Shown here piece after piece: positions 3,694-21,521 of a DNA stretch of 62,575 nucleotides. The first letter of the stretch is position 1. Each line of letters starts with the position of its first letter. The notes under the pieces are model-generated. The model searched no databases. It worked only from the letters and a program-made list of their open reading frames with translations, and was not told the DNA's origin. Source of the DNA: a virus; IMG/VR virus record IMGVR_UViG_3300006751_000011, positions 1-62,575 of that record; one strand, given 5' to 3'. A program made the position numbers and the translations under genes.

Positions 3694-3702
3694 AGCAACA
3701 AT

Positions 3703-3779
3703 GCTCCCATAGCTCAGCCGGATAGAGCAACAGCCTTCTAAGCTGTAGGTCACAGGTTCGAATCCTGTTGGGGGTGCCA
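3703..3779 (+). tRNA. tRNA-Arg (anticodon TCT)
   Basis: The acceptor is GCTCCCA with TGGGGGT (two G-U pairs), the anticodon stem is ACAGC/GCTGT with loop CTTCTAA (anticodon TCT), the T-arm is ACAGG-TTCGAAT-CCTGT, the discriminator is G and CCA is encoded at 3777-3779. It reads AGA, a codon common in this sequence, so it probably supports phage codon use. Confidence 0.96.
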
Positions 3780-3798
3780 AACAACAATGGAGAACAAG

Positions 3799-4410
3799 AT
3801 GAAAGATTTTAAGTGGGCTTCTTTTGATAATAAGACTGAAGACGATGGTGACAGTAATGATTCAAATGATACGAATCAGGTTTTAGCTACAAACAACAAA
3901 ATATATTTTTATTCAGAAGTAAGTCGCCCAAAAGTTCTTACGATGAATAAGAGTCTGTTCAATATTGGCGTTAGTATGCAAAATCGCGCAAATATTTTAG
4001 GAATGACAGATCCAGGCTGCATTTATCTTCATATCAATAGTTATGGTGGCAGTGTGTTTGCTGGAATGGCGGCTACTGACTATATCTTAAGTTCTCCAGT
4101 GCCCGTTGTAACTGTCATTGATGGGTGCGCAGCCAGCGCGGCAACTCTTATGAGTGTAGTTGGTTCACATCGCATGATGCATAAACATTCCTTTATGCTG
4201 ATCCACCAATTATCTTCTTGGACTGCTGGCAAATATGCAGAGATGCAAGATGATATGAAGAACAACGATCTTCTTATGAAGACAATCAAAGACATCTATA
4301 TTGAGCACACAAAGATCCCCAAAACCGAGCTTACTAAGATCCTTAAGCGCGATTTGTGGTGGGACGCCGAAAAGTGCCTGAAGTATGGATTAATTGATGA
4401 AATTATTTAA
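3799..4410 (+). CDS. clpP: ClpP-type ATP-dependent serine protease subunit
   Basis: This is a 203-residue ClpP-fold protease. The motifs are HINSYGGSV (oxyanion loop), GCAASAATLM with the nucleophile Ser113, FMLIHQ with His136 and LKRDLWWDAE with Asp185, so the catalytic triad is complete. The end GLIDEII matches the family terminus. The first 30 residues are an acidic, Asp/Asn-rich extension. Start 3799 is preferred because GGAG at 3789-3792 is 6 bases upstream; ATG 3787 in the same frame lies 7 bases after tRNA-Arg and lacks such a site. In phages ClpP-like proteins may be prohead proteases or may work with host ClpX/ClpA; no ATPase partner is in the window. Its place just after the tmRNA island suggests a protein-turnover role. 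Confidence 0.9.
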   Translation: MKDFKWASFDNKTEDDGDSNDSNDTNQVLATNNKIYFYSEVSRPKVLTMNKSLFNIGVSMQNRANILGMTDPGCIYLHINSYGGSVFAGMAATDYILSSPVPVVTVIDGCAASAATLMSVVGSHRMMHKHSFMLIHQLSSWTAGKYAEMQDDMKNNDLLMKTIKDIYIEHTKIPKTELTKILKRDLWWDAEKCLKYGLIDEII

Positions 4411-4767: not shown

Positions 4768-4797
4768 AAGCCGTGTCAGAAATGACACGGCTTTTTT
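4768..4797 (+). terminator. Intrinsic terminator between convergent genes
   Basis: An 11-bp stem (AAGCCGTGTCA 4768-4778 with TGACACGGCTT 4783-4793) with a GAAA tetraloop is followed by more T to 4797. It closes the + transcript that ends at 4745. On the minus strand the tail has few T, so it would stop the antisense gene only weakly. The stop codon of the antisense gene lies in the T tract. Confidence 0.92.
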
Positions 4798-5566
4798 ATA
4801 TGTTTAAGAATGGTCTCAATAGGGAACGAAAATATCTGTTAGACATATCCTCTTCTAGAGAACCATTAATAAATTCTCTCATAGCTTGATAATTTGGAGA
4901 TAGCGCGACATTATTAAAGTGTCTTATAACAGAATGGACCATTCCAATCAATTCGCCTTTCTGGTTGAATATTGGAGACCCAGAACTGCCCCCAAAAGCG
5001 GGCAAAGAATAGACACCCATACCTCGTTCGTTTGTGCCATTATAAAACCCTTGGAAGATCGGAACCATATTCCTAGAAAAGACTCCCAATGGCGCAGCGA
5101 TATTTAAAACTAAATCTCCTGGCACGGGGGCTCTCGGTGCAATTGTTACTTGAGGTTCAAATAAATCTTTCACCCAGACCAAACAAACATCATGGCGATT
5201 ATCAAACTTCACTATCCGCACTGGCTTTCTTTTGAGGTCTAAAGTAACAACAAAAAAATCTATTTTTAGTTCAGAAGACGGATCAGCTTCAACTTCTTTT
5301 TTTGTTTCTCTCTCATCACAGACGTGTGCGGCAGTCAAGACATAAGAGCCCTCTGGTCTATTTTGTATTATGACTCCAGAGGCGACAGCAGAGAAATTTC
5401 TTTCCATACAAGCTTCTTCACTACAACTTCTTATTACTAGTTCTTTTTCTAATTTGACAAAAGACTGTCTAGGCAATATTTTTTTGTAATCTATATTATG
5501 GCGCACAGCGCAGCTAGTCAGACAAAACATCAAAATTAGAAATATTGTCTTTTTTAACCTAACCAC
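4796..5566 (-). CDS. Trypsin-like (HtrA/S1-type) serine protease lipoprotein
   Basis: This is a 256-residue protein on the minus strand, the only antisense gene here. The start is GTG at 5566, with GAGG 8 bases upstream; this gives a lipoprotein signal of the form MVRLKK, a hydrophobic stretch, and the lipobox LTSC with Cys19. The codon after Cys is Ala, which in Gram-negatives favours the outer membrane. The catalytic triad is visible: His81 in VLTAAHVCD, Asp126 in RHDVCLVWV and Ser195 in FGGSSGSP. No PDZ domain follows, so it is a bare protease domain. The 100 bases between it and phoH must hold promoters for both. It could clip surface or periplasmic proteins, or act in exclusion of other phages; neither is shown by the sequence. 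Confidence 0.88.
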   Translation of the reverse strand: MVRLKKTIFLILMFCLTSCAVRHNIDYKKILPRQSFVKLEKELVIRSCSEEACMERNFSAVASGVIIQNRPEGSYVLTAAHVCDERETKKEVEADPSSELKIDFFVVTLDLKRKPVRIVKFDNRHDVCLVWVKDLFEPQVTIAPRAPVPGDLVLNIAAPLGVFSRNMVPIFQGFYNGTNERGMGVYSLPAFGGSSGSPIFNQKGELIGMVHSVIRHFNNVALSPNYQAMREFINGSLEEDMSNRYFRSLLRPFLNI

Positions 5567-5699
5567 ATTATTGACCTCACATCGCGACCATCTCAAATAT
5601 AACTAGAACTTATTAACACTAAAACTCTAATTATTAAAACAAAAGACTGCCACAAACATCTATTTACTTCAGTTGCTAATAAAAAAGAGAGATCTGAAA

Positions 5700-7022: not shown

Positions 7023-7307
7023 ATGAAAACTAAGATAGAATTTTTGAACAAAGATGAAAATGCGGTGACTGGATTATCAGATGTAGTGGAGCCGGATACA
7101 GATTTAAAAAATATGCTTGTGGAATACGTCGGCGAGAAAAAGAGCCCGGACGGAAACGTCACGGTGGAAATGATTGTTGATACCATGGCAGAAGAATTTC
7201 CAGACTTTGTGTTAGCCTTAGCAGAAGAAAACTGGGTCCGAGGGTATCAACAGGCTTTTTATGATCTTCGCGGAGACCTAGAAGATAATGACGACCAACC
7301 GCAATAA
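7023..7307 (+). CDS. Conserved-looking small acidic protein of unknown function
   Basis: This is a 94-residue protein that starts right after the phoH stop (TAG ATG) and overlaps the next start by 20 bases, so it is cotranslated with both. It is acidic, and its C-terminal half is a helix-rich segment (LALAEENWVRGYQQAFYDLR). No motif gives a function. Confidence 0.6.
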   Translation: MKTKIEFLNKDENAVTGLSDVVEPDTDLKNMLVEYVGEKKSPDGNVTVEMIVDTMAEEFPDFVLALAEENWVRGYQQAFYDLRGDLEDNDDQPQ

Positions 7308-7986
7308 GCTTGTTAATTCAATTAAAGAATCACGTAGAAGAGAAATAGCTCAACGTCGAGAGTGGGAAATATTTGGCAGTGTTCAACTTATCATAAAGGA
7401 CCACCCTCCGACAAACGTGAATATTCAAGACATTATTCAAGAATTGGAAGAAAAAATCCCCCGTGGATTTGTAAAGTCTCTGGACGTGATTTATATCGGA
7501 CAGTTCGAACACTTACAAACTCGCGAAGTTGAAGCTATTTATCAGGACGGGGCAATATATGTCTCAAATGACCAGCCCACAGAAGACGAATTTGTGGAAT
7601 CCATTGGTCACGAGATAGCACATTCCCTGGAAGAAACAATACCTATGGAAATATATTCCGATGGAGTCATTGAAGAAGAATTTCTGGGAAAGCGCCGCCG
7701 ACTCTGGTCTATTCTTAAATCTAGAAACTTGGCGAAAGATGACGATCGCGTTTATTTTGATCAGCCGGATTATTCAAAGAATTTTGATGCTTATTTATAT
7801 AAGGTTGTTGGATATCCGGTATTGACTTCTCTGACTATGGGCTTATTCTTATCACCATACGCGGCTACATCACTCAGAGAATATTTCGCGAACGCCTTTG
7901 AGTCTTTTTTCTTAAATGGCGAGGCAAATTATGTTAAACAAATTAGCCCAGCCGTGTATAATAAACTTATTGAGTTATCGAACTGA
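7288..7986 (+). CDS. Putative zinc metalloprotease (zincin, HExxH)
   Basis: This is a 232-residue protein. Residues 107-113, GHEIAHS, carry the HExxH zinc motif (His108, Glu109, His112). About 85 residues later REYFANAFESFFL supplies Glu198 and Glu205, either of which could be the third ligand in the manner of lethal-factor-like zincins. The N-terminal half has alternating strands and helices and reads YIGQFEHL, with an aromatic-rich central part. No signal peptide is present, so it should act in the cytoplasm or be packaged in the virion. It overlaps the previous gene by 20 bases. Target unknown. Confidence 0.7.
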   Translation: MTTNRNKLVNSIKESRRREIAQRREWEIFGSVQLIIKDHPPTNVNIQDIIQELEEKIPRGFVKSLDVIYIGQFEHLQTREVEAIYQDGAIYVSNDQPTEDEFVESIGHEIAHSLEETIPMEIYSDGVIEEEFLGKRRRLWSILKSRNLAKDDDRVYFDQPDYSKNFDAYLYKVVGYPVLTSLTMGLFLSPYAATSLREYFANAFESFFLNGEANYVKQISPAVYNKLIELSN

Positions 7987-8404: not shown

Positions 8405-9196
8405 ATGCCACATATTTCTTTTTCTGAGTTGAAGAACTGGGACAAGTGCGCGCACTATCACAAGTTGGTTCACCTAGACAAACTAAAAGGCTTTGAAGGT
8501 AACGTACATACAGCTATTGGTAATGCCGTTCACGATGTCTGTGAGCATATTCTAATTAAGAATAGCGTACAGAATACGCAAGACTTATTTGAGGTCAGAT
8601 TTCTTAAAGCTCTCCAACGACTTCCGGAACACATTAAAGATGATCTGGACAAAAAACTCGTCACTGATATGAGGCAGCAGGGTAAAGATATTGTTGTCCT
8701 TGTGCTTGATTCAGTTAAAGAATACTTCGGAGATTATGAAACGATCTCAACTGAAGAAAGACTTATGTACCCAATTGAAGAATTTGATGATGCAGAATAT
8801 TCTTTCAAAGGTTTCATTGACTTAGTATTAAAAACAGACGATGGAAAATATCACATAATTGATTGGAAGACCTGCTCCTGGGGCTGGGACGCCCGCCGTA
8901 AAACTGAGCCAATGACAACATATCAGTTAACATTTTACAAGCATTACTTCGCTAAAAAACACAATATTGACCCGTCTGATATTGAGACACATTTTGCCCT
9001 TCTTAAACGAACGGCTAAAAAAGACCGTGTAGAATTTTTTAGAGTGACCAGCGGTCCTAAAAAAACCAGCAATGCTGTTAAATTCCTAACGAGAGCATTG
9101 TATAATATTAACAATAAGAAATTTGTCAAGAACAAACTTTCGTGTCACGGAAATTTTGGTCAATGCGAATTTTATAAGACAAAACACTGTAGGTAA
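8405..9196 (+). CDS. PD-(D/E)XK nuclease, Cas4/RecB-like, with a likely Fe-S cluster
   Basis: This is a 263-residue protein with the motifs of the PDDEXK_1 (Cas4, AddB, RecB nuclease) group: AVHDV (His43), GFIDL (Asp139), IIDWKT (Asp153, Lys155) and a following helix with QLTFYKHYF. Four Cys are placed as in the iron-sulfur members: Cys15 at the N-terminus and Cys247, Cys254 and Cys262 at the C-terminus, although the spacing of the last three is wider than usual. It probably cuts or trims DNA ends in phage recombination or in breakdown of host DNA. No CRISPR array or cas1 is near, so it is not part of a CRISPR system here. Confidence 0.85.
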   Translation: MPHISFSELKNWDKCAHYHKLVHLDKLKGFEGNVHTAIGNAVHDVCEHILIKNSVQNTQDLFEVRFLKALQRLPEHIKDDLDKKLVTDMRQQGKDIVVLVLDSVKEYFGDYETISTEERLMYPIEEFDDAEYSFKGFIDLVLKTDDGKYHIIDWKTCSWGWDARRKTEPMTTYQLTFYKHYFAKKHNIDPSDIETHFALLKRTAKKDRVEFFRVTSGPKKTSNAVKFLTRALYNINNKKFVKNKLSCHGNFGQCEFYKTKHCR

Positions 9197-9202: not shown

Positions 9203-10462
9203 GTGAGCAAGATTAAAGTATTAACTATTTCTGATCATCCTTTATCTCCGTCAGGAGTGGGCACCCAAACTAGGTATGTGATTGAAGCGCTCCTAAAATC
9301 TGGCAAGTTTCAGTTTAATTCTCTTGCTGGAGCAATGCGCCACGATAATTATAACCCTGTTAAAACTGAAGAATGGGGTGACGATTGGGCAATCTACCCG
9401 GTTGATAGCTATGGAGATCCAGATACTATAAGATCTCTGCTGCGAACCTATAAGCCAGACATTGTGTGGTTTATGACAGACCCTAGGTTTTATATCTGGC
9501 TGTGGGAGATGGAAGATGAAATTCGTTCTATGGTCCCGCTGGTGTATTACCACGTGTGGGACAATTACCCTTATCCGACTTTTAACAAACATTATTACGA
9601 TTCTTGCGATGTCATCGCGACCATCTCAAAGGTTACCGACGATATTGTAAAAACGGTCTCTCCAGACACAGAAAGTATCTACATTCCTCACGCCGTTGAT
9701 TCGGAATGTTTTAAACCTCTAGAAAAAGATGTTATTCAAAAGGCTCGTGACGACTCCGGCATCAAACCAGAACAAACTTTGTTTTTCTGGAACAACCGAA
9801 ACGCTCGCCGCAAGCAGAGTGGGAGTCTCATCTTTTGGTTCAATGATTTCCTCGAAAAGGTTGGTAAAGATTCAGCGAGGCTTATAATGCATACGAGTAC
9901 GAAGGATGAGGCGGGACAGGATCTTGAAGCAATCCTTTATCAAACAGGTCTTACAAATGGCGAGGTTAAATTCTCCACTGCCAAGATCCCCCCACAACAG
10001 TTAGCTATGATGTATAATATGGCTGACTGCACTGTTAATATTGCCGACGCCGAAGGCTTTGGATTATCTTCACTTGAGAGTCTTTCTTGTGGAACACCAG
10101 TCATTAATACGATGACCGGAGGTCTCCAAGAACAGGTAACAGACGGAGAGAATTGGTTTGGTATTGGCATTGAACCAGCTTCAAAAGCTATTATTGGTTC
10201 TCAGCAAATTCCTTGGATTTATGAGGATCGTGTCAGCGGAAAAGACGTTGTTGATGCTTTCATTAAAATCCACGAGATGTCTGATGAGCAGTTAACAGAA
10301 TTGGGATCCGCAGGTCGCGACCACACACTTAAGAACTATAATTTTGAAAAGTTCAATAAACAATGGATTGACCTTATGACAGAGACCTATGAGAAACGAG
10401 GCTCTTGGGAAAACAGAAAGATGTATAATCGTTGGGAACTTATTAAGATGGGGGGCAAATAA
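9203..10462 (+). CDS. Glycosyltransferase family 4 (GT-B fold), first gene of the glycan cluster
   Basis: This is a 419-residue protein. The N-terminal Rossmann-like half starts with ISDHPLSPSGVG, a typical acceptor-side glycine loop. The C-terminal half has the donor motif DAEGFGLSSLESLSCGTPVI near residue 280, matching the E-x7-E signature of GT4. The start is GTG at 9203, just after the nuclease gene, with a weak ribosome binding site. It overlaps the next gene by one base (TAATG). The donor and acceptor sugars cannot be told. Confidence 0.9.
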   Translation: MSKIKVLTISDHPLSPSGVGTQTRYVIEALLKSGKFQFNSLAGAMRHDNYNPVKTEEWGDDWAIYPVDSYGDPDTIRSLLRTYKPDIVWFMTDPRFYIWLWEMEDEIRSMVPLVYYHVWDNYPYPTFNKHYYDSCDVIATISKVTDDIVKTVSPDTESIYIPHAVDSECFKPLEKDVIQKARDDSGIKPEQTLFFWNNRNARRKQSGSLIFWFNDFLEKVGKDSARLIMHTSTKDEAGQDLEAILYQTGLTNGEVKFSTAKIPPQQLAMMYNMADCTVNIADAEGFGLSSLESLSCGTPVINTMTGGLQEQVTDGENWFGIGIEPASKAIIGSQQIPWIYEDRVSGKDVVDAFIKIHEMSDEQLTELGSAGRDHTLKNYNFEKFNKQWIDLMTETYEKRGSWENRKMYNRWELIKMGGK

Positions 10463-11703
10463 TGAAAAAGATTTTAGTAAGAGGTCCAGCCCTCAGCAGA
10501 AGCGGTTATGGCGAACAAGCTCGCTTTGCACTCCGTGCCCTCAACGCTCACCAAGCTGAATATGATATATATTTGATTAATACCGGCTGGGGAGCCACAA
10601 GTTGGTTAACAGAAGATGACGAAGAGCGCGCCTGGATTGATTCCCTATTACAAAAAACAATTGCCTATTCTCAGACCGGCGGCACGTTTGATATTTCAGT
10701 TCAAGTTACCATCCCGGCTGAATTTGAGCGCCTAGCTCCATATAATGTTGGCTATACAGCGGGTATTGAAACCACGTTGATGTCGGCGCCGTGGCTTGAG
10801 AAAACTTACGTTGTTGATAAGCTTATTGTCCCTTCTCAACATTCAAAAGGTGTTATTGAAACCTCCAGTTGGGATGGTCAGGACCAGCGAACAAACCAAG
10901 CCTTTAAACTAACTTGCATAAAACCTGTGGATGCCGTTGCATTTCCTGTAAAACAAATTGAACCAGAAGACATTAATTTAGGTCTGGATACCGATTTCAA
11001 TTTTCTGACAGTGGCTCAATGGGGTCCAAGAAAAAATCTAGAAGCGACCATTGATTGGTTTGTTGAAGAATTCCAGGGTAATCCAGAAGTAGGATTAATC
11101 GTTAAAACCCAGCTCGCAAAAAATTGTCTTATTGATAGAAGACATACCGAAACTCGTCTTAAAAGATTACTGGCTAAATATCCTGACCACAAGTGCAAAG
11201 TATATCTATTACACGGAGCCTTAACCGAGGGTGAAATGACTTCACTTTATCAGGATGATAGAATAAAAGCAATCGTGAGTACCACACACGGCGAGGGATT
11301 TGGCTTGCCACTGTTTGAAGCTGCGTATAACGGTCTTCCTGTAATAGCAACAAACTGGAGCGCTCACAGAGACTTTTTATATGCACCAGTCAAGGATAAG
11401 AAGAGTAAGAAAACAAAGATAAAAGCCCTGTTTTCAAAGATTGATTATACACTGGAAAACATCCCGCCCCATGCTGTCTGGGAAAACGTTATTGTCGCAG
11501 AGGCGAAGTGGGCTGTTCCCAAAAAGGGCAGCTATAAAACTTGCCTAGGAAAAGTATATGCCAACTATGGCACCTATAAATCATCTGCTAAGAAACTTCA
11601 GACTTATTTGAAAGATGAGTTTTCAGCAGAGAATCAGTACAAAAGATTCGTCGATGCTCTAGGTCTCCCTGAACAGGCTGAAGAAGTACAAGTTTTTACG
11701 TGA
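10462..11703 (+). CDS. Glycosyltransferase family 4
   Basis: This is a 413-residue protein. It opens with RGPALSRSGYGEQARFA, the same kind of glycine loop as its neighbour, and has the donor motif HGEGFGLPLFEAAYNGLPVI near residue 275. A Lys-rich insert (KDKKSKKTKIK) follows near residue 313. It overlaps the upstream stop and probably works in sequence with the first GT4 enzyme. The two are of the same family but differ enough that they likely add different sugars. Confidence 0.9.
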   Translation: MKKILVRGPALSRSGYGEQARFALRALNAHQAEYDIYLINTGWGATSWLTEDDEERAWIDSLLQKTIAYSQTGGTFDISVQVTIPAEFERLAPYNVGYTAGIETTLMSAPWLEKTYVVDKLIVPSQHSKGVIETSSWDGQDQRTNQAFKLTCIKPVDAVAFPVKQIEPEDINLGLDTDFNFLTVAQWGPRKNLEATIDWFVEEFQGNPEVGLIVKTQLAKNCLIDRRHTETRLKRLLAKYPDHKCKVYLLHGALTEGEMTSLYQDDRIKAIVSTTHGEGFGLPLFEAAYNGLPVIATNWSAHRDFLYAPVKDKKSKKTKIKALFSKIDYTLENIPPHAVWENVIVAEAKWAVPKKGSYKTCLGKVYANYGTYKSSAKKLQTYLKDEFSAENQYKRFVDALGLPEQAEEVQVFT

Positions 11704-11711
11704 GAAGATAG

Positions 11712-13340
11712 ATGAACTTTGTTTTTGTAGCCGACTTCTTTGCCAATGAGATCTTAGGGGGCGGTGAAATAAATAATGATGTCCTCGCTGATTGCTTACG
11801 CCAGCGGGGACACTCTGTATCTGAGAGAAAGTGTGTATCCCTTACGACAGAAGAAATAACTTCTAATCTGGGCGCTTGTTACGTTATAAGCAACTTTATA
11901 CAACTATCAGAAGATGTGAAGTCCGCTCTCAAAAATACCCGATACGTTATTTATGAGCACGACCATAAATATCTCCGACATCGTAACCCGGCGATGTTCT
12001 CCAATTATAAAGCACCTAGATCCGAATTAGTCAATAGAGATTTTTATGCGGGCGCCCTCGGTGTCTTCTGCCAGAGTAAATTTCATTGCGAGATCTTGCA
12101 GAAGAATCTTTTCCTAGATAATGTTAAGAACCTCGGCGGCAACTTGTGGTCAGACGAGTCCTTAGAGGTGATGACAATACTGCTTCAGAATGAGAAGCAA
12201 AACAAATTCTCTGTAATGCAATCAAGCATCGCACATAAGAATACTGCTGGCGCCGTGAAATACTGCGAGAGAAACAACTCTCCGTATGATTTGATCTCTT
12301 CCAGCGATTATCACGATTTCTTATCGCAGCTTTCTAGGAATAACAAATTTGTGTTTCTGCCGCAGACCCCAGAGACACTATCTAGAGTGGTTGTTGAAGC
12401 GAGGATGCTTGGCGTCGAGGTTCACACTAACAGTCGTGTAGGCGCAGCTTCAGAATCTTGGTTCCCTTTAAAGGGATTTGAATTAATAGAGAAGATGAGA
12501 CAACGACGCGAAGAAATAACATCAGCGGTAGAACATACTTTCAATTCTGGTAAATGTTCTTTTTTTACCCCCTCTCTAGACACACCGAAGATTTCAATAT
12601 TAACATCCTTATATAAAGGCGATGAACATATTGAAGGGTTCTTGGCTAATATGACTTCTCAATCTGTCTTTGACGATTGTGAACTTATTATCATTGATGC
12701 AAATTCCCCAGGCAATGAAAAAGAAGTAATTGATAGATATCGCGAGCAGTATCCAAACATTATTTATAAGCGCCTTGATAAAGACCCTGGCATATACGGT
12801 TGTTGGAATCAAGCCCTTGATATGGCTTCTGGCGAATTCGTAACAAACGCAAATTTAGATGACCGCCGCTCAAGGCAACAGTTAGAGATCTTTGCCAACG
12901 AGTTAACAAATGATTCAGAAGTTGACCTGATCTATTCCCAATGTTTCATAACCGGCAAGGCGGGAGAAACTTATCTTCACAATTCTAGCTTGGAAACTGT
13001 ATATCCTATCGCCCCGTTTTCTCGCGAGGCTATGGTTAAGTGCTTACCAGGATGTATGCCGATGTGGAGAAGGAGTATGCACGAGGGCATTGGAAACTTT
13101 GAGGCGAAATATAAGTCAGCAGGAGACTGGGAGATGTGGCTCCGCGCAGTAGAGAACGGCTCTGTATTTAAGATGGCTGATGGGGTCCACGGTCTTTATT
13201 ATCATAACCCGACTGGGTTATCAACTGACAAGTCTCGCGAGAAAGAGAAGAAGGCAGAGGAGGCTGAGGTCTTTTTTAAATATGCCGAGATCTTTGGGCA
13301 GAGAAACTTTGATATGTTTAAAGGATACTTCTCACAGTGA
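11712..13340 (+). CDS. Bifunctional glycosyltransferase, GT-B-like N-terminus fused to GT2
   Basis: This is a 542-residue protein with two parts. Residues 1-285 look like a degenerate GT4-type GT-B module: FVADFFANEILGGGEIN at the start and FLPQTPETLSRVVVEARMLG with a conserved Glu where the donor site should be. From residue 291 a GT2 (GT-A) domain begins with PKISILTSLYKGDEHIEGFL, followed by IIIDANSPG, then NANLDDR near 380 with the metal-binding Asp pair, and AGDWEMWLRA as the acceptor-side acid motif. Two transferase domains on one chain suggest that two sugars are added in turn. It overlaps the next gene by 4 bases. Confidence 0.85.
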   Translation: MNFVFVADFFANEILGGGEINNDVLADCLRQRGHSVSERKCVSLTTEEITSNLGACYVISNFIQLSEDVKSALKNTRYVIYEHDHKYLRHRNPAMFSNYKAPRSELVNRDFYAGALGVFCQSKFHCEILQKNLFLDNVKNLGGNLWSDESLEVMTILLQNEKQNKFSVMQSSIAHKNTAGAVKYCERNNSPYDLISSSDYHDFLSQLSRNNKFVFLPQTPETLSRVVVEARMLGVEVHTNSRVGAASESWFPLKGFELIEKMRQRREEITSAVEHTFNSGKCSFFTPSLDTPKISILTSLYKGDEHIEGFLANMTSQSVFDDCELIIIDANSPGNEKEVIDRYREQYPNIIYKRLDKDPGIYGCWNQALDMASGEFVTNANLDDRRSRQQLEIFANELTNDSEVDLIYSQCFITGKAGETYLHNSSLETVYPIAPFSREAMVKCLPGCMPMWRRSMHEGIGNFEAKYKSAGDWEMWLRAVENGSVFKMADGVHGLYYHNPTGLSTDKSREKEKKAEEAEVFFKYAEIFGQRNFDMFKGYFSQ

Positions 13341-13984
13341 AGAAAATAATCTCATTTAGCCTCTGGGGAAACAACCCAACCTATACAGTGGGTGCAATTA
13401 AGAATGCAGATCTAGCTTTGGAAATATACCCAGGCTGGATTTGTCGTTATTATGTAGGCAAGTCAGTTCCGGCAGACATCATAGACGCATTGATACAGAG
13501 AGAGAACACTGAAGTGTTCGTGATGAACGAAGAAGGTGATTGGACTGGAATGTTCTGGCGCTTTTATCCAGCTTCAGAACCTGACGTTGAGGTTATGTTA
13601 TCTAGGGATACAGACAGTCGTTTGGATATAAGAGAACGCGCCGCAGTTGATGACTGGCTTGCAGGCGATAAAGATTTCCATATTATGAGAGATCACCCAT
13701 ATCACGCAACTCAAATTCTCGGTGGAATGTGGGGGGTACGGAACGGGCTTCTGCTCGGGATGAGGCAGGCTATATTAGATTATACTAAGGGTGATTTTTG
13801 GCAAGTAGACCAAAACTTCTTAAAAGAAATCATATATCCTTATATAATGAATAATACTTGCACGCACGATGAATACTTTGCGAAAGAGCCGTTTCCAACA
13901 AAACGAGAACCAAAGCAGTTTGTCGGTCAGGCATATGACGCCAACGATAATCAATTGCACCCTGAACACGGAGAATTAGTATGA
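13337..13984 (+). CDS. Glycosyltransferase-like protein with a DxD motif
   Basis: This is a 215-residue protein. The start KKIISFSLWGNNPTYTVGA and the segment VMLSRDTDSRLDIRE carry the fold pattern and DxD metal site of GT-A type sugar transferases. The middle (GGMWGVRNG) fits a substrate loop of such enzymes. It overlaps its neighbours by 4 bases on each side (ATGA), so it is expressed as part of the cluster. The exact family is not recognised. Confidence 0.65.
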   Translation: MKKIISFSLWGNNPTYTVGAIKNADLALEIYPGWICRYYVGKSVPADIIDALIQRENTEVFVMNEEGDWTGMFWRFYPASEPDVEVMLSRDTDSRLDIRERAAVDDWLAGDKDFHIMRDHPYHATQILGGMWGVRNGLLLGMRQAILDYTKGDFWQVDQNFLKEIIYPYIMNNTCTHDEYFAKEPFPTKREPKQFVGQAYDANDNQLHPEHGELV

Positions 13985-14655
13985 AGAATTTAAGCAACGT
14001 TGATATCCACGAATTCCTTTCTCGATGCAAGCCAGAGCGTGTTGAGGGTAGAAAGATTAACTACGAAGACACAGAATATGCCATGCCATATTCTACTGTA
14101 AAAATACAAGATGTTATCTTGGGGGGTCTTAGAGAAAATCAAGAGAGAATTTCTTTGTTCGAAAAGATTATAGAAGATAATTCCCAATCTCGCGATTCAT
14201 ACCTAGATATCGGGAGTAATTTAGGCGTGTTTGTCAGATCTTTTGATCATATCTTTGAAAAGGTTAGTGGAATAGACGCTGATCGCTATTATATTGATAT
14301 GTGTGAGTTCTTATACGAGGAAGAAAATTGTGATTTTATTTTGGCTGATCTTAATATTAAAAGAATTACAGATTTCTTTGATTCCCCGCGCGACGTAATC
14401 ACTGCACTGTCTATGATCGAGTACATAAATAATAAAGAACAATTTGTGCAAGATTTATATGATCTAACAAATGAACTTTGTATTATCGAAGGTCACAGCG
14501 AAGATATTATCAAGGGCTACGATAAGAAATACGAAGACCTGCTAAAGTCTAAAAACTGGAAAGTGCAGAGAGCAGACTTTACTACTGACGCTGGGGTGAA
14601 CGCTCCTGTGCCGACACAGGAGACGGGGAGACCATTATGGATCTGCAAGAAATGA
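13981..14655 (+). CDS. SAM-dependent methyltransferase (class I)
   Basis: This is a 224-residue protein. Motif I is YLDIGSNLGVF (residues 74-84), followed by VSGIDADRYYID with the acidic residue for the SAM ribose, and a later ITALSMIEYI strand. Within this cluster it most likely methylates a sugar hydroxyl or carboxyl group. It overlaps the kinase-like gene by 19 bases. Confidence 0.8.
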   Translation: MKNLSNVDIHEFLSRCKPERVEGRKINYEDTEYAMPYSTVKIQDVILGGLRENQERISLFEKIIEDNSQSRDSYLDIGSNLGVFVRSFDHIFEKVSGIDADRYYIDMCEFLYEEENCDFILADLNIKRITDFFDSPRDVITALSMIEYINNKEQFVQDLYDLTNELCIIEGHSEDIIKGYDKKYEDLLKSKNWKVQRADFTTDAGVNAPVPTQETGRPLWICKK

Positions 14656-15194
14656 AAGCCTTTTACCCAAAAACATCAAATGGCGCCAATAGTGATAGAA
14701 AATATTTTGTATCTGGATCCGCTTTTATAAAGGTTGACGATTTTGCTGAGAGAGGTCAGAGCGAGGCTCGTATCTTATCCTCTTTATCTCACCCTCTCGT
14801 GCAGAAATATATTGATTCTTATATTTCTGACGATAATAAGCATATATTAATCACCGAATATTTTGAAGGAGATACTTTAGAAAATCTTCTCTCTCAAGAG
14901 TCTTTGTCCCATATCCAGAGAATAACGATAGAAAGTCAATTGTTTCTAATTCTATCGTACCTTATCCAGCGCCGCGTTCATCACGGCGATATAAATGTTA
15001 GTAATATTCTGTTTAATGGTGAACGAATACTTTTGATAGACTTTGAGATGTCACGGTACGACGATGGGATGAAGGATTTATTAGGACCATTAACCGAAAC
15101 AAATCATTGTGGCATATTTAACGTTATTAACATCATTAGAGGACGAGACAAGCCCAAGCCTGAGCCGCCTGAAGAAGTCGCCGAGGAACTATAG
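14637..15194 (+). CDS. Small kinase-fold protein (LPS-kinase or aminoglycoside-kinase-like)
   Basis: This 185-residue protein has the key residues of the protein-kinase-like fold: AFIKVDD with Lys32, QSEARIL with Glu43, HHGDINVSNIL with catalytic Asp118 and Asn123, and LLIDFE with Asp135 in the place of DFG. It is shorter than usual for the family and lacks most of the C-lobe, which is seen in bacterial Kdo/heptose kinases and RIO-like proteins. It probably phosphorylates a sugar in this pathway; a protein substrate is also possible. The start at 14637 has GGGGAGA upstream; an ATG at 14652 is the alternative. Confidence 0.8.
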   Translation: MDLQEMKAFYPKTSNGANSDRKYFVSGSAFIKVDDFAERGQSEARILSSLSHPLVQKYIDSYISDDNKHILITEYFEGDTLENLLSQESLSHIQRITIESQLFLILSYLIQRRVHHGDINVSNILFNGERILLIDFEMSRYDDGMKDLLGPLTETNHCGIFNVINIIRGRDKPKPEPPEEVAEEL

Positions 15195-15832
15195 TGTACG
15201 ACCAAACATTAGAATATTTTAGGAATAGGATTCTTAAAGATAACGAGAAGCTCTTAAGCGAGTATAATAAGACATATGACTACCTAAGCCTGATTCACCC
15301 AATTTACAATCGTAATTGGAGAGTAAAATTTTTAGATAATCATCGGTTTATGAATTGGATTTTATATTCGTATCTAATGGATATAAAAGAAAATCGTGCT
15401 GAACATTTGTTGCCCAACAACATCCTTTCTGGTGATATCACAGTTATGGATATTGGGTGTTACGATTCTTTTCTTGTTGCAGCATTAAATAAAAATGGAA
15501 TTGATGCTTATGGATATGACGATAACGATTGGGCTGATATGTTCGGCGTCTTGGGAACAACACATAAGACTAATTTTAGTCCGAACTGGAATCGTAGAGA
15601 AAAAAACATTGACGTTGCCATAGTGTTGAATTATGCTCATATGTTTAAACCAGATGACTTATTGTCCTATGTCGAAGAGAAGTGCGGAAATATGCCGTCA
15701 GCAATATTTTTTGATTTTGATGCAAGTGTTCAACATGTACATCATCATTTGTATGAGGCGTCGCGAGCAAATTACAAGACACTGACATTCCCTGCCTCCT
15801 CGGAGAGAGAATTATATATATGGCACGCATAA
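15194..15832 (+). CDS. SAM-dependent methyltransferase-like protein
   Basis: This is a 212-residue protein with VMDIGCYDSFLVAAL (motif I) and a following YGYDDND segment with an acidic residue. The rest (VLNYAHMFKPDDLLSYVEEK) fits the second half of a class I methyltransferase. The start is GTG at 15194, sharing bases with the upstream TAG. It overlaps the next gene by 13 bases. Its substrate is unknown, and motif I is less regular than in the other methyltransferase of the cluster. Confidence 0.65.
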   Translation: MYDQTLEYFRNRILKDNEKLLSEYNKTYDYLSLIHPIYNRNWRVKFLDNHRFMNWILYSYLMDIKENRAEHLLPNNILSGDITVMDIGCYDSFLVAALNKNGIDAYGYDDNDWADMFGVLGTTHKTNFSPNWNRREKNIDVAIVLNYAHMFKPDDLLSYVEEKCGNMPSAIFFDFDASVQHVHHHLYEASRANYKTLTFPASSERELYIWHA

Positions 15833-16497
15833 TAAGGATAGATGATTTCCCACACGGCGATCTGGCGATGTTTTCTCGCGGAGATTATATGTATTATCGC
15901 CAAAAAGTCGCCGCTGGCTTAGAAGTGTTTGAGAAAAACGATATACCCTACATACTCGGCGCCAGCGCTCTACTTTTTCAGCCTGGAGATGTTGAGTTTT
16001 TGAACTCCACTATTAAGAAGGGCAAAGTTGTTCTCCACGGTTTTAATCACGGTTGGAATTTACCGTGGGATAAAATAACGTCTTTCTGGAGAGGTGGTGG
16101 TGAATTTTTCAACCTCTCAACTGAGGATATCTCTGAGAGGTATCAACGTTCTGTTGAGATTTTAAAAAATGTCAAATCTTTTTCCGAAGAGGATTTTATT
16201 GCACCATTTAATTGTTATACACAAGAACTGTTAGATTTTCTCAAAGACACACCAGTAAAAAGAATTCACACTTCAGATGAATTTTGGGAATCGTATGGTT
16301 TGGATAAAATGGAATATCACTCTATGACTCCAGTGGTTTCTAAATTTAAAGTCACTTATGATGATGCCCATAAGGTTGTAAACCATCTTGATGATCCATC
16401 GCAAATAACTTTACATTGGTGTTATGACGCGCAAAGACCGAATTGGCTTTCGGATTATCAAACGTTATGCACAGAGATAGAGAAGAGAAATGTATAA
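15820..16497 (+). CDS. Polysaccharide deacetylase-like (NodB/CE4 family) protein
   Basis: This is a 225-residue protein that opens with IIRIDDFPHG (Asp8, Asp9) and has LHGFNHGW with His73 and His77, giving the Asp plus HxxxH metal site of CE4 deacetylases. Such enzymes remove acetyl groups from N-acetyl sugars. The later FIAPFNCYTQELLDFL resembles the family motif with Pro-x-Gly replaced by PFN. It is somewhat short. It overlaps both neighbours. Confidence 0.75.
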   Translation: MARIIRIDDFPHGDLAMFSRGDYMYYRQKVAAGLEVFEKNDIPYILGASALLFQPGDVEFLNSTIKKGKVVLHGFNHGWNLPWDKITSFWRGGGEFFNLSTEDISERYQRSVEILKNVKSFSEEDFIAPFNCYTQELLDFLKDTPVKRIHTSDEFWESYGLDKMEYHSMTPVVSKFKVTYDDAHKVVNHLDDPSQITLHWCYDAQRPNWLSDYQTLCTEIEKRNV

Positions 16498-17224
16498 AAT
16501 AATGATTCCCTATAGAGATCGCGATTCTCATCTAAAGACATTTGTTAAGAATGCGATACCTTTCTTTGAAGAGTCTGGCAGGGACTATAAAATAATCATA
16601 ATTGAGCAACCTGATGGTAAGCCATTTAATCTTGGTAAATTAACCAACGTTGGGTTTGATATTTTTAAAAAAGAGTATGGTGGGTATAAACCAGAAGACT
16701 CATTTATATTTCAACCTGTTGATTGTATTCCTTATGATGCTCACTATGACGCGCCGCGAGGCGGCATTGCGAAACTAACTAGTCACTATAGTACGCCAAG
16801 ACAGTCCGACGAAATAACTGTTGATTTTAGTCGCGCGACGTGGACACCGCGTAGATCTCAGGTGCCGCAAGGCGAACCTCGCGTACACGGAGTTCCGTTT
16901 CATTATAAAGCTTTCTCTATCGATCCGGCTGCTTATGAGAAGGTGAACGGCTTTAATAATGATTGCTGGGGTTGGGGAGGCGAAGATGATGAATTTTTTG
17001 TGCGCCTTTCCTTGTTTGGGATTAAGAACGTGCATCGTCTTTGCCTGTACGACATGCTAGATCACGAACTAGCGTCTTTAGAACACCACCAACATAATAT
17101 CCTCAAGGCTCATATTATGGCATCTCAAGAAGACGCCTACAAAAGCGGTCTAAGTAACTTGGAATATAAAGTTATTGAAAAGACTGAAAGGCTTGGAATT
17201 GAGACATATGTTTGTGAGATTTAA
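16490..17224 (+). CDS. GT7 family (beta-1,4-galactosyltransferase-like) glycosyltransferase
   Basis: This 244-residue protein has the full set of motifs of animal-type beta-1,4-galactosyltransferases: IPYRDRDSHLKTFV at the start, FNLGKLTNVGF, FQPVDCIP in place of the usual DVD metal site, AFSIDPAAYEKVNGFNNDCW and GWGGEDDEF near residue 161. The last motif forms the acceptor and catalytic site in that family. GT7 members also occur in bacteria and viruses. No transmembrane anchor is present, so it is a soluble cytoplasmic form. It joins the next gene with a 1-base overlap. Confidence 0.9.
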   Translation: MYKIMIPYRDRDSHLKTFVKNAIPFFEESGRDYKIIIIEQPDGKPFNLGKLTNVGFDIFKKEYGGYKPEDSFIFQPVDCIPYDAHYDAPRGGIAKLTSHYSTPRQSDEITVDFSRATWTPRRSQVPQGEPRVHGVPFHYKAFSIDPAAYEKVNGFNNDCWGWGGEDDEFFVRLSLFGIKNVHRLCLYDMLDHELASLEHHQHNILKAHIMASQEDAYKSGLSNLEYKVIEKTERLGIETYVCEI

Positions 17225-18096
17225 TGGACACCAAAGACAAAAATAAACTGCTCTTTGCGGAACAACTAAAATTAATAGAAATAGAGATTTTTTCCTATTG
17301 CAATAGAAAATGCTGGTTTTGTCCTAATTCTTTTATTGATCGTCTTTCTCAAAATCATATAATGGACGAGAAAGTTTATCTCGATCTCTTGAATCAACTA
17401 AAAGAAATTGACTTTTCTGGAGAATTGACGTACAGTAGATACAATGAACCAACATCCAACCGGGAATTGTTTTTAAAGAGAGTGAATCAAGCACGTCAAA
17501 TACTCCCAAAAGCAATACTGAGAACAAACACGAATGGTGACTACATCACCAGAGAATATGTGGAAGAGTTGTGTGACGTTGGTTTTAATCAACTTTGGAT
17601 TCAGCAGTACCTCGGTAATAATGAAAGATATGACCACGAAAAGATGCGCCAGCGCTCCGAGGCTAAGATAAAGAAGCTTGGATTATCATCACAAGTTTTG
17701 ACAGATATTCCAGGCTATAAATTAGAATATGATATATCATACAATGGTATGACTATACATATAAGATCTAGGAATTTTGAGATAGACGGCTCCAGCAGAG
17801 GCGATTCTATAGAACTGGCATCGGAATATACTAGAACACAAAGATGTTTACAAGTTAGTCAAAATATGTACATTGATTACAACGGAGCGGTTATGGTGTG
17901 CTGCGCGTTGAGATCAGATGTACCAGGGCAGGAATCTGGAGTGATGGGGCACATTGGGGAGGACAAACTGTGGAATATATATGCTAGTGAAAAATATGAA
18001 CCCTGGAGAAAACATCACAGCGGTGATGGACCCAAGGAAGGGTTTTGTAAATCCTGTAAGGACAGTGTAAAGATTGAACCAGAGGTATCAGAGTGA
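17224..18096 (+). CDS. Radical SAM/SPASM enzyme
   Basis: This 290-residue protein has YCNRKCWFCPN, the CxxxCxxC iron-sulfur motif of radical SAM enzymes (Cys26, Cys30, Cys33). About residues 205-280 contain further Cys in the pattern of a SPASM domain (RCLQVSQNMYIDYNGAVMVC and then FCKSCK), which binds extra clusters. SPASM enzymes modify peptides or sugars. Since it lies inside a glycan cluster, a sugar modification such as epimerisation or deoxygenation is inferred. It overlaps the next gene by 4 bases. Confidence 0.87.
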   Translation: MDTKDKNKLLFAEQLKLIEIEIFSYCNRKCWFCPNSFIDRLSQNHIMDEKVYLDLLNQLKEIDFSGELTYSRYNEPTSNRELFLKRVNQARQILPKAILRTNTNGDYITREYVEELCDVGFNQLWIQQYLGNNERYDHEKMRQRSEAKIKKLGLSSQVLTDIPGYKLEYDISYNGMTIHIRSRNFEIDGSSRGDSIELASEYTRTQRCLQVSQNMYIDYNGAVMVCCALRSDVPGQESGVMGHIGEDKLWNIYASEKYEPWRKHHSGDGPKEGFCKSCKDSVKIEPEVSE

Positions 18097-18932
18097 AAAT
18101 TTTAATTATTCAAGAGAACGGTAGGCACGAGGCAAACAAACATTTTAGAGAATGCTTTTGTATGCAGAGATCTCTACAAGCACTGGGTCACCAAGCAGAT
18201 GTGTGGGGGTTTGGTCATGACAACTTTTCACAAACTCCGGATTGGGACGCATATGATCTCATCTTAAACTTTGAAAACTATGATACGACGGGCTGGTCAC
18301 CGAATCTATCACATACACAGAGCCCGAAGAAATTCTTATGGAGCATTGATGCACACTGTGTTGGGCTCCAACCATTCCTGAATACTTATCACAACGGTAA
18401 TTATGATTTGATATTACAATCAACTGAGGATTTTGTTGAGGAGAACAGCGTATGGTTTCCAAACTGCTATGACCACACTCTGATTAAACCCTCGGCGCCC
18501 AAGAGCACATTCTTGGGCTTTTGTGGTTCTATGCTAAACAGAAAACCGCTCCTTGATTACTTGTCCAACAATTATGATCTGAGACAGGACATATGGAAGC
18601 TTGGAGATGAGATGGTGAGAACAGTTTCATCATATAAGATTCATTTCAATATTAATCTCGCGAATGATATTAATTACCGAAGCTTTGAAACAATTGGCTG
18701 TGAGACACTGTTGTTGACTAACTATAATCCTCAATATGAGAAGCTAGGGTTTATCCACGGAGAAAACTGTCTTATGTACACAGACCAGCAATCTTTATTT
18801 CGTAGTATTGAAGCTTGCCAGATTGATCCGGACTTGGTTACATCAATCTCACGAAATGGTTATATTCTGTCAAAACAGCACACCTACGACGAACGCGCCA
18901 AAAAACTTTTATCCATTTATCAGGAGTGTTAA
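18093..18932 (+). CDS. CgeB-like glycosyltransferase
   Basis: This is a 279-residue protein whose N-terminal half starts with MKILIIQENGRHEANKHF and whose C-terminal half contains NYRSFETIGCETLLLTNYNP, the donor-site signature of the CgeB/YkvP-type transferases (family GT1-like, DUF3880 and Glyco_trans_1_2). In this family an Asn-x-Arg-x-Phe-Glu segment marks the sugar-nucleotide site. It ends 1 base before the epimerase start. Confidence 0.75.
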   Translation: MKILIIQENGRHEANKHFRECFCMQRSLQALGHQADVWGFGHDNFSQTPDWDAYDLILNFENYDTTGWSPNLSHTQSPKKFLWSIDAHCVGLQPFLNTYHNGNYDLILQSTEDFVEENSVWFPNCYDHTLIKPSAPKSTFLGFCGSMLNRKPLLDYLSNNYDLRQDIWKLGDEMVRTVSSYKIHFNINLANDINYRSFETIGCETLLLTNYNPQYEKLGFIHGENCLMYTDQQSLFRSIEACQIDPDLVTSISRNGYILSKQHTYDERAKKLLSIYQEC

Positions 18933-18933
18933 G

Positions 18934-19839
18934 ATGAAGCGAGCGATTGTTACCGGAGGTGCGGGGTTCATTGGAAGTCATATAGTTGACAGGCTGTTGG
19001 ATACGGGAGTTGAAGTCGTGGTAATCGATAATGAATCGTCTGATTGTCACGAGGCTTTTTATTGGAACGACCGTGCTGAAAATCATAAGTTAGACATTTG
19101 TGATTACGCTAGTGTCTCTCCACTTTTTGAGGGCGCCGATGCAGTCTTTCACCTTGCAGCCGAAGCTAGAATTCAGCCTGCGATAAAAAATCCTCTTCTT
19201 GCGGTAAGGGTAAACGTCCTAGGGACTTGTAATGTCCTTCAGGCGGCTTATACTTGGGGTGTGAAGCGACTCATTTACTCCTCCACTAGTTCAGCCTACG
19301 GTCGCAAAAACCCCCCACCTCAGCGCGAGGATATGGCGAAGGATTGCCTCAATCCATATTCTGTTTCAAAGACTTGCGGAGAAGAGTTGTGCAAAATGTA
19401 CAACAATCTATACGGGCTTGAAACAGTTAGTTTTCGTTATTTTAATGTTTATGGCGAACGTCAGCCGACCAAGGGACAATATGCTCCGGTCATTGGTTTA
19501 TTTGCCAAGCAAAAAGATCAGGGGAATCCTTGCACAATCGTTGGGGATGGTCTTCAGCGCAGAGACTACACTCACGTTTCAGATGTCGTCCGAGCAAATA
19601 TATTAGCTGCGACAACAGAGGACCAGTCAGCGTTGGGGGAACTGTTTAATATTGGGACAGGAAAAAACTATAATATTTTTGATTTAGTTGATATGATAGA
19701 TAATCAACACACGTTCATCCCATCCCGCCCAGGGGAGTCTAGAGAGACGTTAGCTGATATTACAAAGGTGACATCAGTCCTTGGCTGGCAACCCGAAGTA
19801 ACTTTACAAGAATGGATAAAAAAGTCAAGAAACATTTAA
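18934..19839 (+). CDS. NAD-dependent nucleotide-sugar epimerase (UDP-glucose 4-epimerase-like)
   Basis: This is a 301-residue extended SDR enzyme. The start at 18934 is set by AGGAG at 18922-18926; an earlier in-frame start would overlap the upstream gene by 125 bases. The NAD motif VTGGAGFIGSH, the YSVSKTCGEE catalytic Tyr-xxx-Lys and RYFNVYGERQ are all present. It likely interconverts UDP-glucose and UDP-galactose or a related pair, which would supply donor sugar for the GT7 enzyme of the cluster. The exact sugar cannot be told from sequence. It ends the cluster. Confidence 0.9.
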   Translation: MKRAIVTGGAGFIGSHIVDRLLDTGVEVVVIDNESSDCHEAFYWNDRAENHKLDICDYASVSPLFEGADAVFHLAAEARIQPAIKNPLLAVRVNVLGTCNVLQAAYTWGVKRLIYSSTSSAYGRKNPPPQREDMAKDCLNPYSVSKTCGEELCKMYNNLYGLETVSFRYFNVYGERQPTKGQYAPVIGLFAKQKDQGNPCTIVGDGLQRRDYTHVSDVVRANILAATTEDQSALGELFNIGTGKNYNIFDLVDMIDNQHTFIPSRPGESRETLADITKVTSVLGWQPEVTLQEWIKKSRNI

Positions 19840-19888: not shown

Positions 19889-20083
19889 ATGAAATTATCA
19901 GATCAGGCATTGACTGCCATAATGACAGCTCTACAAAAGTGTATTTTGGAACAGACCGATATTGTTCCGATCCTTAAAGGTTTTGAATTTGATAAAACTT
20001 CAAAACGATGGGGTGGTAACGGTGAGCTTGTTGTTAATAACACTCCGACATTTTCACCAAATGTTGCGTCGGATGACAATTAG
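19889..20083 (+). CDS. Small conserved-looking phage protein
   Basis: This is a 64-residue protein with a strong ribosome binding site (AAAGGAG) after the glycan cluster. The pattern KLSDQALTAIMTALQKCILEQ then VPILKGF is one I associate with short marine T4-like phage proteins near the sigma-factor genes. The function is unknown. It begins the next run of tightly overlapping genes. Confidence 0.6.
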   Translation: MKLSDQALTAIMTALQKCILEQTDIVPILKGFEFDKTSKRWGGNGELVVNNTPTFSPNVASDDN

Positions 20084-20525: not shown

Positions 20526-20857
20526 TGGAAGTATTTTTTGGTTTATTGTTGCTCGCGAGCCTCGCTGTCAATACAATATTAATTTGGTATATTAAGAGGG
20601 TCGTAGCAAGATCGTCGGTCGTCTATGACGCCACAAACGATATACTTGGGGCTCTGGGGGATTTTACAGAGCACCTTGATTCCATAGATGAACTTAGAGC
20701 ATTCTACGGAGATCCAGATTTTAAGAGCATTTTAGAACACTCTAAAGCCATTACAGAAGACGTTGCGAATTACCGTGATGGATTCATTTTTGAAATAAAA
20801 GGGGGAACGCTTGAGCACATCTACGGCACAAAAGAAAACGCGACGGAAGAAGAATAA
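20522..20857 (+). CDS. Membrane-anchored small protein
   Basis: This 111-residue protein has an N-terminal membrane helix (FFGLLLLASLAVNTILIWYI) followed by a positively charged boundary (KRVVARS), so the rest should face the cytoplasm. The soluble part is acidic and helical. Its last 47 bases overlap the sigma-factor gene. The function is unknown; a holin-like or envelope role is possible but not shown. Confidence 0.6.
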   Translation: MMEVFFGLLLLASLAVNTILIWYIKRVVARSSVVYDATNDILGALGDFTEHLDSIDELRAFYGDPDFKSILEHSKAITEDVANYRDGFIFEIKGGTLEHIYGTKENATEEE

Positions 20858-21521
20858 GTATTATTACTTCACCCAGGTCCACGAAGACGCGATTGTTAAA
20901 TATGCCCTGACTACAAACCGAGCAGAAAGAGAAGTTCTATACGGTGAATTTATTGGACCCGTGTTTAATGAGATGGTTGACAAGATCGTCTATACTTATA
21001 AATTCACAAATTTGCCAAACATTGATTTTCTTAAGGAAGAATGTAAGACTTGGCTAACAACGATTTTAGATAAGTATGATCCAAATAAGGGATCAAAAGC
21101 TTTTTCATATTTCAGCGTGATTACAAAGAACTGGTTTATCCACAAGGTTAAGAAGCACGCGACCAAGCTCCGCCGCGAAATCGCTTATGATTCTGTCGTC
21201 AAAGAGATTGAACAACAGGGGATGTCAACAGATGATTCATACGCCAAGACTCGCGAAGACGCAGAGTTCTGGCATTTTCTGTGGAAAGAAATTGATAGTT
21301 GGGATACCGGGACTCTAAAGCCAAATGAGGAAAAGGTTTTGAACGCGGTAAAAGAATTGCTATCAAGTTGCGATGAGATAGAAATTTTTAATAAAAAAGC
21401 TATTTACTTATATCTTAGGGAATTGACTGGTTTAAATACAAAGCAGGTCGTCAACAACCTGAACAAACTGAGATTAAAATATAGGCAGTTTAAAACAAAA
21501 TGGAACGAAGGCGAGATATAA
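20811..21521 (+). CDS. Late sigma factor, T4 gp55-like
   Basis: This 236-residue protein carries a sigma-70 region 2-like core: EECKTWLTTILDKYDPNKGS followed by KAFSYFSVITKNWFIHKVKK, in which an aromatic and basic helix would melt the -10 DNA. This matches the style of T4 gp55 proteins of marine phages. It would redirect host RNA polymerase to phage late promoters, and the large virion block lies right after it. The start is TTG at 20811 after GGGGG, overlapping the membrane-protein gene by 47 bases. There is no region 4 of the standard kind. Confidence 0.75.
   Translation: MSTSTAQKKTRRKKNKYYYFTQVHEDAIVKYALTTNRAEREVLYGEFIGPVFNEMVDKIVYTYKFTNLPNIDFLKEECKTWLTTILDKYDPNKGSKAFSYFSVITKNWFIHKVKKHATKLRREIAYDSVVKEIEQQGMSTDDSYAKTREDAEFWHFLWKEIDSWDTGTLKPNEEKVLNAVKELLSSCDEIEIFNKKAIYLYLRELTGLNTKQVVNNLNKLRLKYRQFKTKWNEGEI

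Follow-up and report, generated by a model that had tools for sequence, protein, structure and literature searches.

Record IMGVR_UViG_3300006751_000011 of the IMG/VR collection, a viral DNA of 62,575 bases that is probably a fragment of a genome and is referred to in its whole length as the window, contains a cluster of glycan-related genes at positions 9203-19839. In total, twelve open reading frames (ORFs) were found there, all located on the plus strand and with ends mostly overlapping or abutting within 1 nt, as at the junctions 10462/10462, 13340/13337, 15194/15194, 17224/17224 and 18096/18093. A continuous twelve-gene cluster had been proposed in an earlier reading of the DNA (the original prediction) and was recovered with two corrections: an 8-nt gap is present at the junction 11703/11712, and the ORF call of the last gene at 18808 was too long, the start preceding its short-chain dehydrogenase/reductase (SDR) motif being the ATG at 18934. 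The cluster is far beyond chance, its first two genes and their position being kept in dozens of related contigs. These two genes encode the constant glycosyltransferases (GTs) GT4a and GT4b, and the stretch between GT4b and the small gene at 19889, or its counterpart in relatives, is termed the cassette. The locus and its flanks comprise the following genes:

8405..9196, plus strand: PD-(D/E)XK exonuclease, conserved left flank (PF12705, 9.4e-15; phrog_69)
9203..10462, plus strand: GT4a, first constant GT (GT-B, GT4 type; PF00534, 7.2e-12)
10462..11703, plus strand: GT4b, second constant GT (PF00534, 7.8e-8)
11712..13340, plus strand: fusion of a GT-B-like domain (residues ~1-280) and a GT2 domain (~290-457), cassette start (PF00535, 4.3e-13)
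13337..13984, plus strand: GT-A fold glycosyltransferase with an SRDTDSR (DxD-like) motif (predicted fold only)
13981..14655, plus strand: S-adenosylmethionine (SAM)-dependent methyltransferase (PF08241, 6.1e-6, above cut-off)
14637..15194, plus strand: small phosphotransferase of the protein-kinase fold, HGDINxxN...DFE (PF00069, 3.8e-14)
15194..15832, plus strand: probable second methyltransferase (PF13489, 0.0023; 18.1 vs 27 bits, below cut-off)
15820..16497, plus strand: DUF2334 or polysaccharide-deacetylase-like protein (PF10096, 2.3e-5; 24.5 vs 26 bits, below cut-off)
16490..17224, plus strand: GT7 glycosyltransferase with a WGWGGEDDE motif (PF13733, 5.6e-15; PF02709, 3.3e-13)
17224..18096, plus strand: radical SAM/SPASM enzyme, CxxxCxxC (PF13186, 5.6e-11; PF04055, 3.3e-8)
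18093..18932, plus strand: GT-B glycosyltransferase (PF13524, 4.3e-17)
18934..19839, plus strand: nucleoside diphosphate (NDP)-sugar epimerase/4,6-dehydratase of the SDR type with GxxGxxG and YxxxK motifs, cassette end (PF01370, 2.5e-62; GalE-like, 4.6e-49)
19889..20083, plus strand: small conserved gene, cassette right edge, where conserved genes resume after nearly all complete cassettes measured
20811..21521, plus strand: late-sigma-like factor, conserved right flank (phrog_234, 3.3e-7)

Family scans, a PDB match and fold comparison together gave seven GT domains in six genes of the cluster, in agreement with the at least five glycosyltransferases originally predicted, and the predicted kinase-fold protein, radical SAM/SPASM enzyme and epimerase were likewise confirmed by their family matches. 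Of the two proposed methyltransferases, one exceeded its family cut-off and the other one did not, and the proposed deacetylase was recognized as a DUF2334-like protein just below the cut-off. The kinase-fold protein additionally showed weak Bud32/Kdo-kinase-like matches. Downstream genes on the same strand encode tape measure and baseplate proteins.

Among solved structures, the best relative of both constant enzymes is the chlorovirus protein B736L of NY-2A (GT4a: 3.9e-17, profile residues 7-399; GT4b: 1.3e-8). For the fusion protein encoded at 11712, the AlphaFold model showed predicted local distance difference test (pLDDT) values mostly >90 in the N domain and low values in the C-terminal 120 residues; its Foldseek matches were GT2 and GT4 enzymes. 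The N domain represents a frequent third gene of the locus, was found in 39 related ORFs, and occurs alone (~278 amino acids, aa), fused to GT2 as in the window, or behind GT4b. Such alternative fusions between N domain, GT2 and GT4b are as expected for enzymes that may act in sequence. Loci L165, L056, L061, L015, L225 and L230 carry GT4b in fusion with either GT2 (~660 aa) or the GT-B-like N domain (~695 aa).

No Pfam family was detected above cut-off for the 215-aa protein encoded at 13337-13984. Assignment by PDB profile search was discarded, as it returned chance sequence matches only, and fold comparison was needed: the predicted model (pLDDT 79) matched glycogenin (8e-7) and the PBCV-1 capsid GT 2p6w (9.7e-7) in Foldseek, with template modelling scores (TM) of 0.5-0.6. 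Close homologues of this protein are present in related cassettes. The closest PDB entry to the GT7 enzyme is animal beta-4-GalT1 (1.6e-18); no relative of it was found in the phage collection and no confirmed one in the viral contigs. Furthermore, no relative of the deacetylase-like protein was found in phages, the search for relatives of the radical SAM protein returned one weak match only, and the cluster DNA had no match among 50,697 phage records.

A constant glycosyltransferase pair and an exchangeable cassette

A scan with the PhoH protein yielded 80 related viral contigs, onto which the genes of the window were mapped, and a scan with the sigma-factor protein provided 80 loci seen from the right side. 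Gene orders were counted over all non-duplicate contigs with room to show the junction. The constant order in the relatives is PhoH, metallopeptidase, PD-(D/E)XK exonuclease, GT4a and GT4b, with GT4a following the exonuclease in 76/77 contigs and GT4b following GT4a in all 69 of 69. The sigma gene was located in 39/48 related records (45-73% identity). Mean pairwise identity amounted to 58% for GT4a (34 phages), 58% for the sigma factor, 53% for the exonuclease and 46% for GT4b, and the distances of both GTs track those of backbone genes (GT4a-sigma r=0.67, GT4b-sigma r=0.48, p=0.001). In the window, positions 7288-7986 encode a small metallopeptidase-like protein with a GHEIAHS motif, for which matches to PF07737 and M90 were sub-threshold; this gene is kept beside PhoH in nearly all relatives. 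In the L068 record (G037, 28989-29681), the sigma-factor frame contains an in-frame TAA, representing a pseudogene, an error or recoding.

The pair was also found in phage isolates. In Flavobacterium phage immuto, the nuclease gene is followed by GT4a, GT4b and then glycan genes; Microcystis phage Mel-JY01 shows the same start of the locus, but with a GuaB-like gene between nuclease and GT4a. Both phages share only about 30% identity with the window, and their loci were annotated gene by gene, a description as one locus not being found in the literature. Moreover, the window's baseplate protein has its closest annotated relatives in one uncultured huge phage and, again, in immuto and Mel-JY01. 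Rhodothermus phage RM378, the reference phage of the 'Far-T4' group (PMC4360716), carries the bare pair beside other genes, with p013 corresponding to GT4a (hhalign 6e-44) and p014 to a GT4b homologue (hhalign 1.2e-14).

Minimal forms consisting of the pair without further glycan genes were observed at L022, L060, L180, L184 and L200. One natural phage, L067, lacks GT4a and GT4b, with no GT4a elsewhere on its 48.6-kb contig, whereas L221, the exonuclease of which is 98% identical to that of L067, carries the pair. This comparison shows that the GT pair can be gained or lost cleanly. Reading the acceptor from this natural deletion was attempted and was not decisive, because the two phages, 92-96% identical in their flanks, agree at only about 70% in the intervening virion block, a difference of ~30%. 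In L019, the exonuclease-GT block has the opposite orientation with respect to PhoH, so the block is able to move as a unit. The bacterial chromosome assembly L248 (CP070664.1, a metagenome-assembled genome of a WOR-3 bacterium, 2.8 Mb) contains PhoH, metallopeptidase, exonuclease and GT4a of this lineage, either as a prophage or as phage sequence joined during assembly.

The cassette was measured at 37 loci, including the window and two isolates. Its size ranges from 0 to 24.3 kb (8.1 kb in the window, 11712-19839), 0-kb forms occurring at L022, L060 and L067, the last of which also lacks the GT pair. Among 553 called cassette genes, 548 are located on one strand. Cassettes share few genes (mean Jaccard index 0.035 at 40% identity, with nothing in common in 292/496 pairs), and 7/10 cassette genes of the window have no relative in the set at this identity. 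Regarding the gene-order search in relatives that had been suggested as a check, order is therefore kept for the first two and often three genes and is not kept within the cassette; judged by the refuting condition originally set, namely order kept in no relative, the cassette fails to persist while the locus as such does. DNA similarity between close relatives ends at the right edge of the cassette, as in L192 and L205, which are similar at 87% from the 19889-type gene onward and not at all upstream. Gene content, the division into constant and variable parts and these sharp exchange boundaries are direct observations, and the locus follows a serotype-like pattern of constant flanks and an exchangeable middle. 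Recent import from a host, as deduced from a shift in G+C content, was rejected, the cassettes (0.367) equalling their flanks (0.370).

Cassette content was tallied for 296 sampled proteins in Pfam and 148 in NCBIfam. Leading families comprise sugar epimerases/dehydratases, aminotransferases, GT2, GT4, NeuB, cupins, methyltransferases (FkbM among them), acyltransferases of the hexapeptide type, CMP-sugar synthetases and thiamine pyrophosphate (TPP) enzymes. Models matched include PseC, PseI, LegB, LegC, RmlB/D and Gmd. The sialic-acid-type synthase NeuB is encoded in 15/50 related records; the window's own cassette has neither NeuB nor the Maf-type family PF01973. Tail-fibre genes were absent from the window cassette and from the top Pfam families of the 296 sampled proteins. 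Promoter and terminator scans exceeded shuffled sequences only modestly, and the T4-type late promoter TATAAATA was not informative, with 7 of 8 sites on the opposite strand.

Candidate acceptors of the glycan

Not one of the 553 cassette proteins had two or more predicted transmembrane helices in a hydropathy test, which leaves no candidate there for a flippase, polymerase or ligase or for an initiating enzyme of polytopic type. Among 24 large relatives, the flippase family Wzx (PF01943) and the initiating phosphoglycosyltransferase family PF02397 were each detected in 0/24, as compared to 13/14 and 9/14 control genomes, respectively. WecA was not profile-searched, and its many transmembrane helices would have shown in the hydropathy test. 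The missing flippase, polymerase and ligase genes noted originally for the window thus hold for all cassettes measured, and this lack of membrane parts is directly observed. An O-antigen or capsule locus of the Wzx/Wzy type was rejected based on the missing PF01943, PF02397 and polytopic proteins, and a gtr seroconversion cassette (GtrA flippase, membrane-bound GtrB/Gtr(type)) based on the missing polytopic membrane protein; the fusion encoded at 11712 matched the GtrB-like phrog_841 in its GT2 domain only (0.0076).

By a slight degree, we consider it probable that the locus is a serotype-like island of a marine T4-like phage lineage and serves cytosolic glycosylation of a phage virion protein, with a constant root and an exchangeable outer glycan. 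We infer the acceptor, an order of action, sugar structures, a product and a benefit as follows. In the cytosol, GT4a and then GT4b would begin the glycan on a conserved acceptor, the likeliest candidates being virion proteins (one or more) of the phage itself. Soluble GTs, nucleotide-sugar enzymes and tailoring enzymes of the cassette would extend and decorate this root; in the window, extension may involve the GT-B/GT2 fusion, the GT-A enzyme, GT7 and the PF13524 enzyme, and decoration may comprise an epimerised sugar, methylation, phosphorylation, deacetylation and radical-SAM chemistry. Neither a lipid carrier nor a flippase would be required, glycosylation preceding or accompanying the assembly of virions. 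Recombination within the conserved flanking genes would exchange the cassette as a whole, and related phages would therefore display different surface glycans. The benefit is probably masking or mimicry that alters adsorption or recognition.

This proposal is consistent with the enzymes observed, since the virus-encoded GTs are soluble (seven GT domains, no polytopic membrane protein) and a constant root with variable decoration is present at the gene level. Carrier-free transfer has a precedent in the cytosolic O-GTs that put nonulosonic acids on flagellins (PMC7591256). Phages of unrelated hosts (Flavobacterium, Microcystis and Rhodothermus) have the pair in common, which suggests a phage-borne acceptor; divergence of the pair along with the backbone and B736L as best solved relative point in the same direction. 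The tape measure and baseplate genes downstream on the same strand also favour a virion acceptor. The argument from B736L is limited, because the true acceptor of that protein is itself unsettled (PMC9614988) and GT4 is a large family. Further points weigh against virion glycosylation: no virion proteomics was found in the literature; the system is dispensable, as L067 lives without both GTs; the Maf-type protein O-GT PF01973 matched weakly in 9/50 relatives, 2 of them above cut-off; and heptose- and lipopolysaccharide (LPS)-type sugar genes in the cassettes fit a lipooligosaccharide as well. Ser/Thr-rich or NxS/T segments are common in many virion proteins and not diagnostic.

Alternatively, soluble phage GTs could extend or cap the nascent lipooligosaccharide core of the host, the product being flipped by host MsbA and superinfection being blocked, which we regard as rather unlikely. 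The original prediction had set a lipid-linked acceptor aside on seeing no flippase or ligase gene, but host lipooligosaccharide is feasible as acceptor, because GTs of the core type are soluble and flipping of the product is done by the host. Genes for dTDP-sugars, GDP-sugars and heptose-like LPS-type sugars in the cassettes are in line with this route, and modification of the O-chain was proposed by the authors of the pelagimyophage study (PMC7029224). However, the root pair is kept across Flavobacterium, Rhodothermus and Microcystis phages, whose LPS cores should differ, and it varies with the phage backbone. Moreover, weak GT4b relatives were found in Streptomyces phages, the hosts of which lack LPS, and same-strand virion genes downstream suggest late expression, which would be late for exclusion.

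Protein or DNA had originally been named as acceptor; a virion protein is still the best guess, and DNA has become the less likely of the two. A glycan on a hydroxymethylated base could confer resistance to restriction, T4-like phages and others being known to glycosylate 5-hydroxymethylcytosine, and a variety of glycans can reportedly be attached to DNA by phage GTs (Pyle et al. 2024, cited in PMC12619734). Yet PF00303 (thymidylate synthase/dCMP hydroxymethylase) was detected neither in Mel-JY01 nor in any of the IMG relatives (0/22); as the window is only a fragment, its own lack of this family is uninformative. The sole match among the 24 large relatives was obtained for immuto, where it is annotated as ThyA, and this phage encodes a separate DpdA/7-deazaguanine DNA-modification set. 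DNA glucosylation of the T4 type was rejected on the missing dCMP hydroxymethylase family in relatives, and we consider DNA glycosylation in general highly improbable. Equally improbable, in our estimate, is a mere hot spot at which unrelated auxiliary genes accumulate without a common product. Low gene sharing between cassettes would agree with separate acquisition of each gene, but such an insertion site is unlikely because a single functional theme dominates (SDR sugar enzymes, aminotransferases, GTs, NeuB, cupins and methyltransferases), and the genes overlap on one strand, always behind the same two GTs. The G+C content of the cassettes, matching that of their flanks, likewise speaks against it.

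Related systems and neighbouring genes

Glycosylation of the virion as proposed here recalls the chloroviruses PBCV-1 and NY-2A, which encode soluble GTs without predicted membrane domain together with sugar enzymes, and whose capsid glycans consist of a conserved core and virus-specific decoration including methylation (PMC9614988, PMC4691112), the same layout as that of the locus. The PBCV-1 capsid GT among the top Foldseek matches of the 13337 protein adds to this likeness. In contrast to the window, chloroviruses are nucleocytoplasmic large DNA viruses (NCLDV) of algae and not phages, and their acceptor is an N-glycosylated capsid protein, whereas a virion acceptor is only deduced here. 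We know of no chlorovirus whose glycan genes sit together as a single exchangeable cassette. In mycobacteriophages, encoded GTs are said to act on capsid and tail tube (Freeman et al. 2023, cited in PMC12619734); we know of few GTs per phage in this group and of no large exchangeable sugar-synthesis cassette.

Host-recognition clusters of pelagimyophages and cyanomyophages likewise represent variable islands with glycosyltransferases in marine T4-like phages; the pelagimyophage island is centred on tail fibres, is flanked by VrlC and gp14, and was proposed to change the host O-chain (PMC7029224). The island described here, located between the exonuclease and the sigma-factor and tape-measure genes, differs by its constant GT pair and the absence of a recognised tail-fibre gene. 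O-antigen and capsule serotype loci (Wzx/Wzy) share the constant flanks and the exchangeable middle of nucleotide-sugar and GT genes, but possess the initiating transferase, flippase, polymerase and ligase that are missing here. Moraphages, which are large phages of aquatic habitats, have a core set of four putative GTs, and no fixed exchangeable cassette was found described for them (PMC12619734).

Each element is already known: sugar clusters in phages, variable islands in marine phages, and glycosylation of virions. A constant GT pair with an exchangeable cassette at one address across a lineage was not found described in the literature, a search outside of which most subscription papers lay. 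Sugar genes of marine phages are usually filed singly as auxiliary genes for LPS or DNA modification; here they are assembled in one locus at a fixed site, where a root of two constant enzymes is followed by an exchangeable payload. It is quite possible, and in our estimate just short of probable, that a widespread aquatic T4-like lineage has true glycan serotypes, i.e., a capsule-like, carrier-free virion coat whose two-GT root is constant and whose outer structure is swapped between phages in blocks of up to 24 kb, the complete synthesis of sialic-acid-like sugars included. A fixed locus predicts a conserved acceptor and makes the purpose of phage glycan clusters testable in the cultured phages immuto, Mel-JY01 and RM378. 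If the virion is the acceptor, phage surfaces would vary by sugar like bacterial capsules, with effects on how phages adsorb and are recognised, and such loci would provide soluble enzymes for rare sugars.

Further features were observed elsewhere in the window. Positions 2665-3779 carry a tmRNA gene (tag ANDNVSFDYALAA) followed by genes for tRNA-Thr, tRNA-Asn and tRNA-Arg, adjoined by a ClpP-like head maturation protease (3787-4410, phrog_94). On the opposite strand, a trypsin-like protease with a lipoprotein-like start is encoded at 4796-5596, as read from its translation. At 36953-48415, one gene encodes a 3820-aa protein in which three laminin-G/ConA-like lectin domains were recognised (PF13385, 3e-32); this protein is probably a giant fibre or adhesin.

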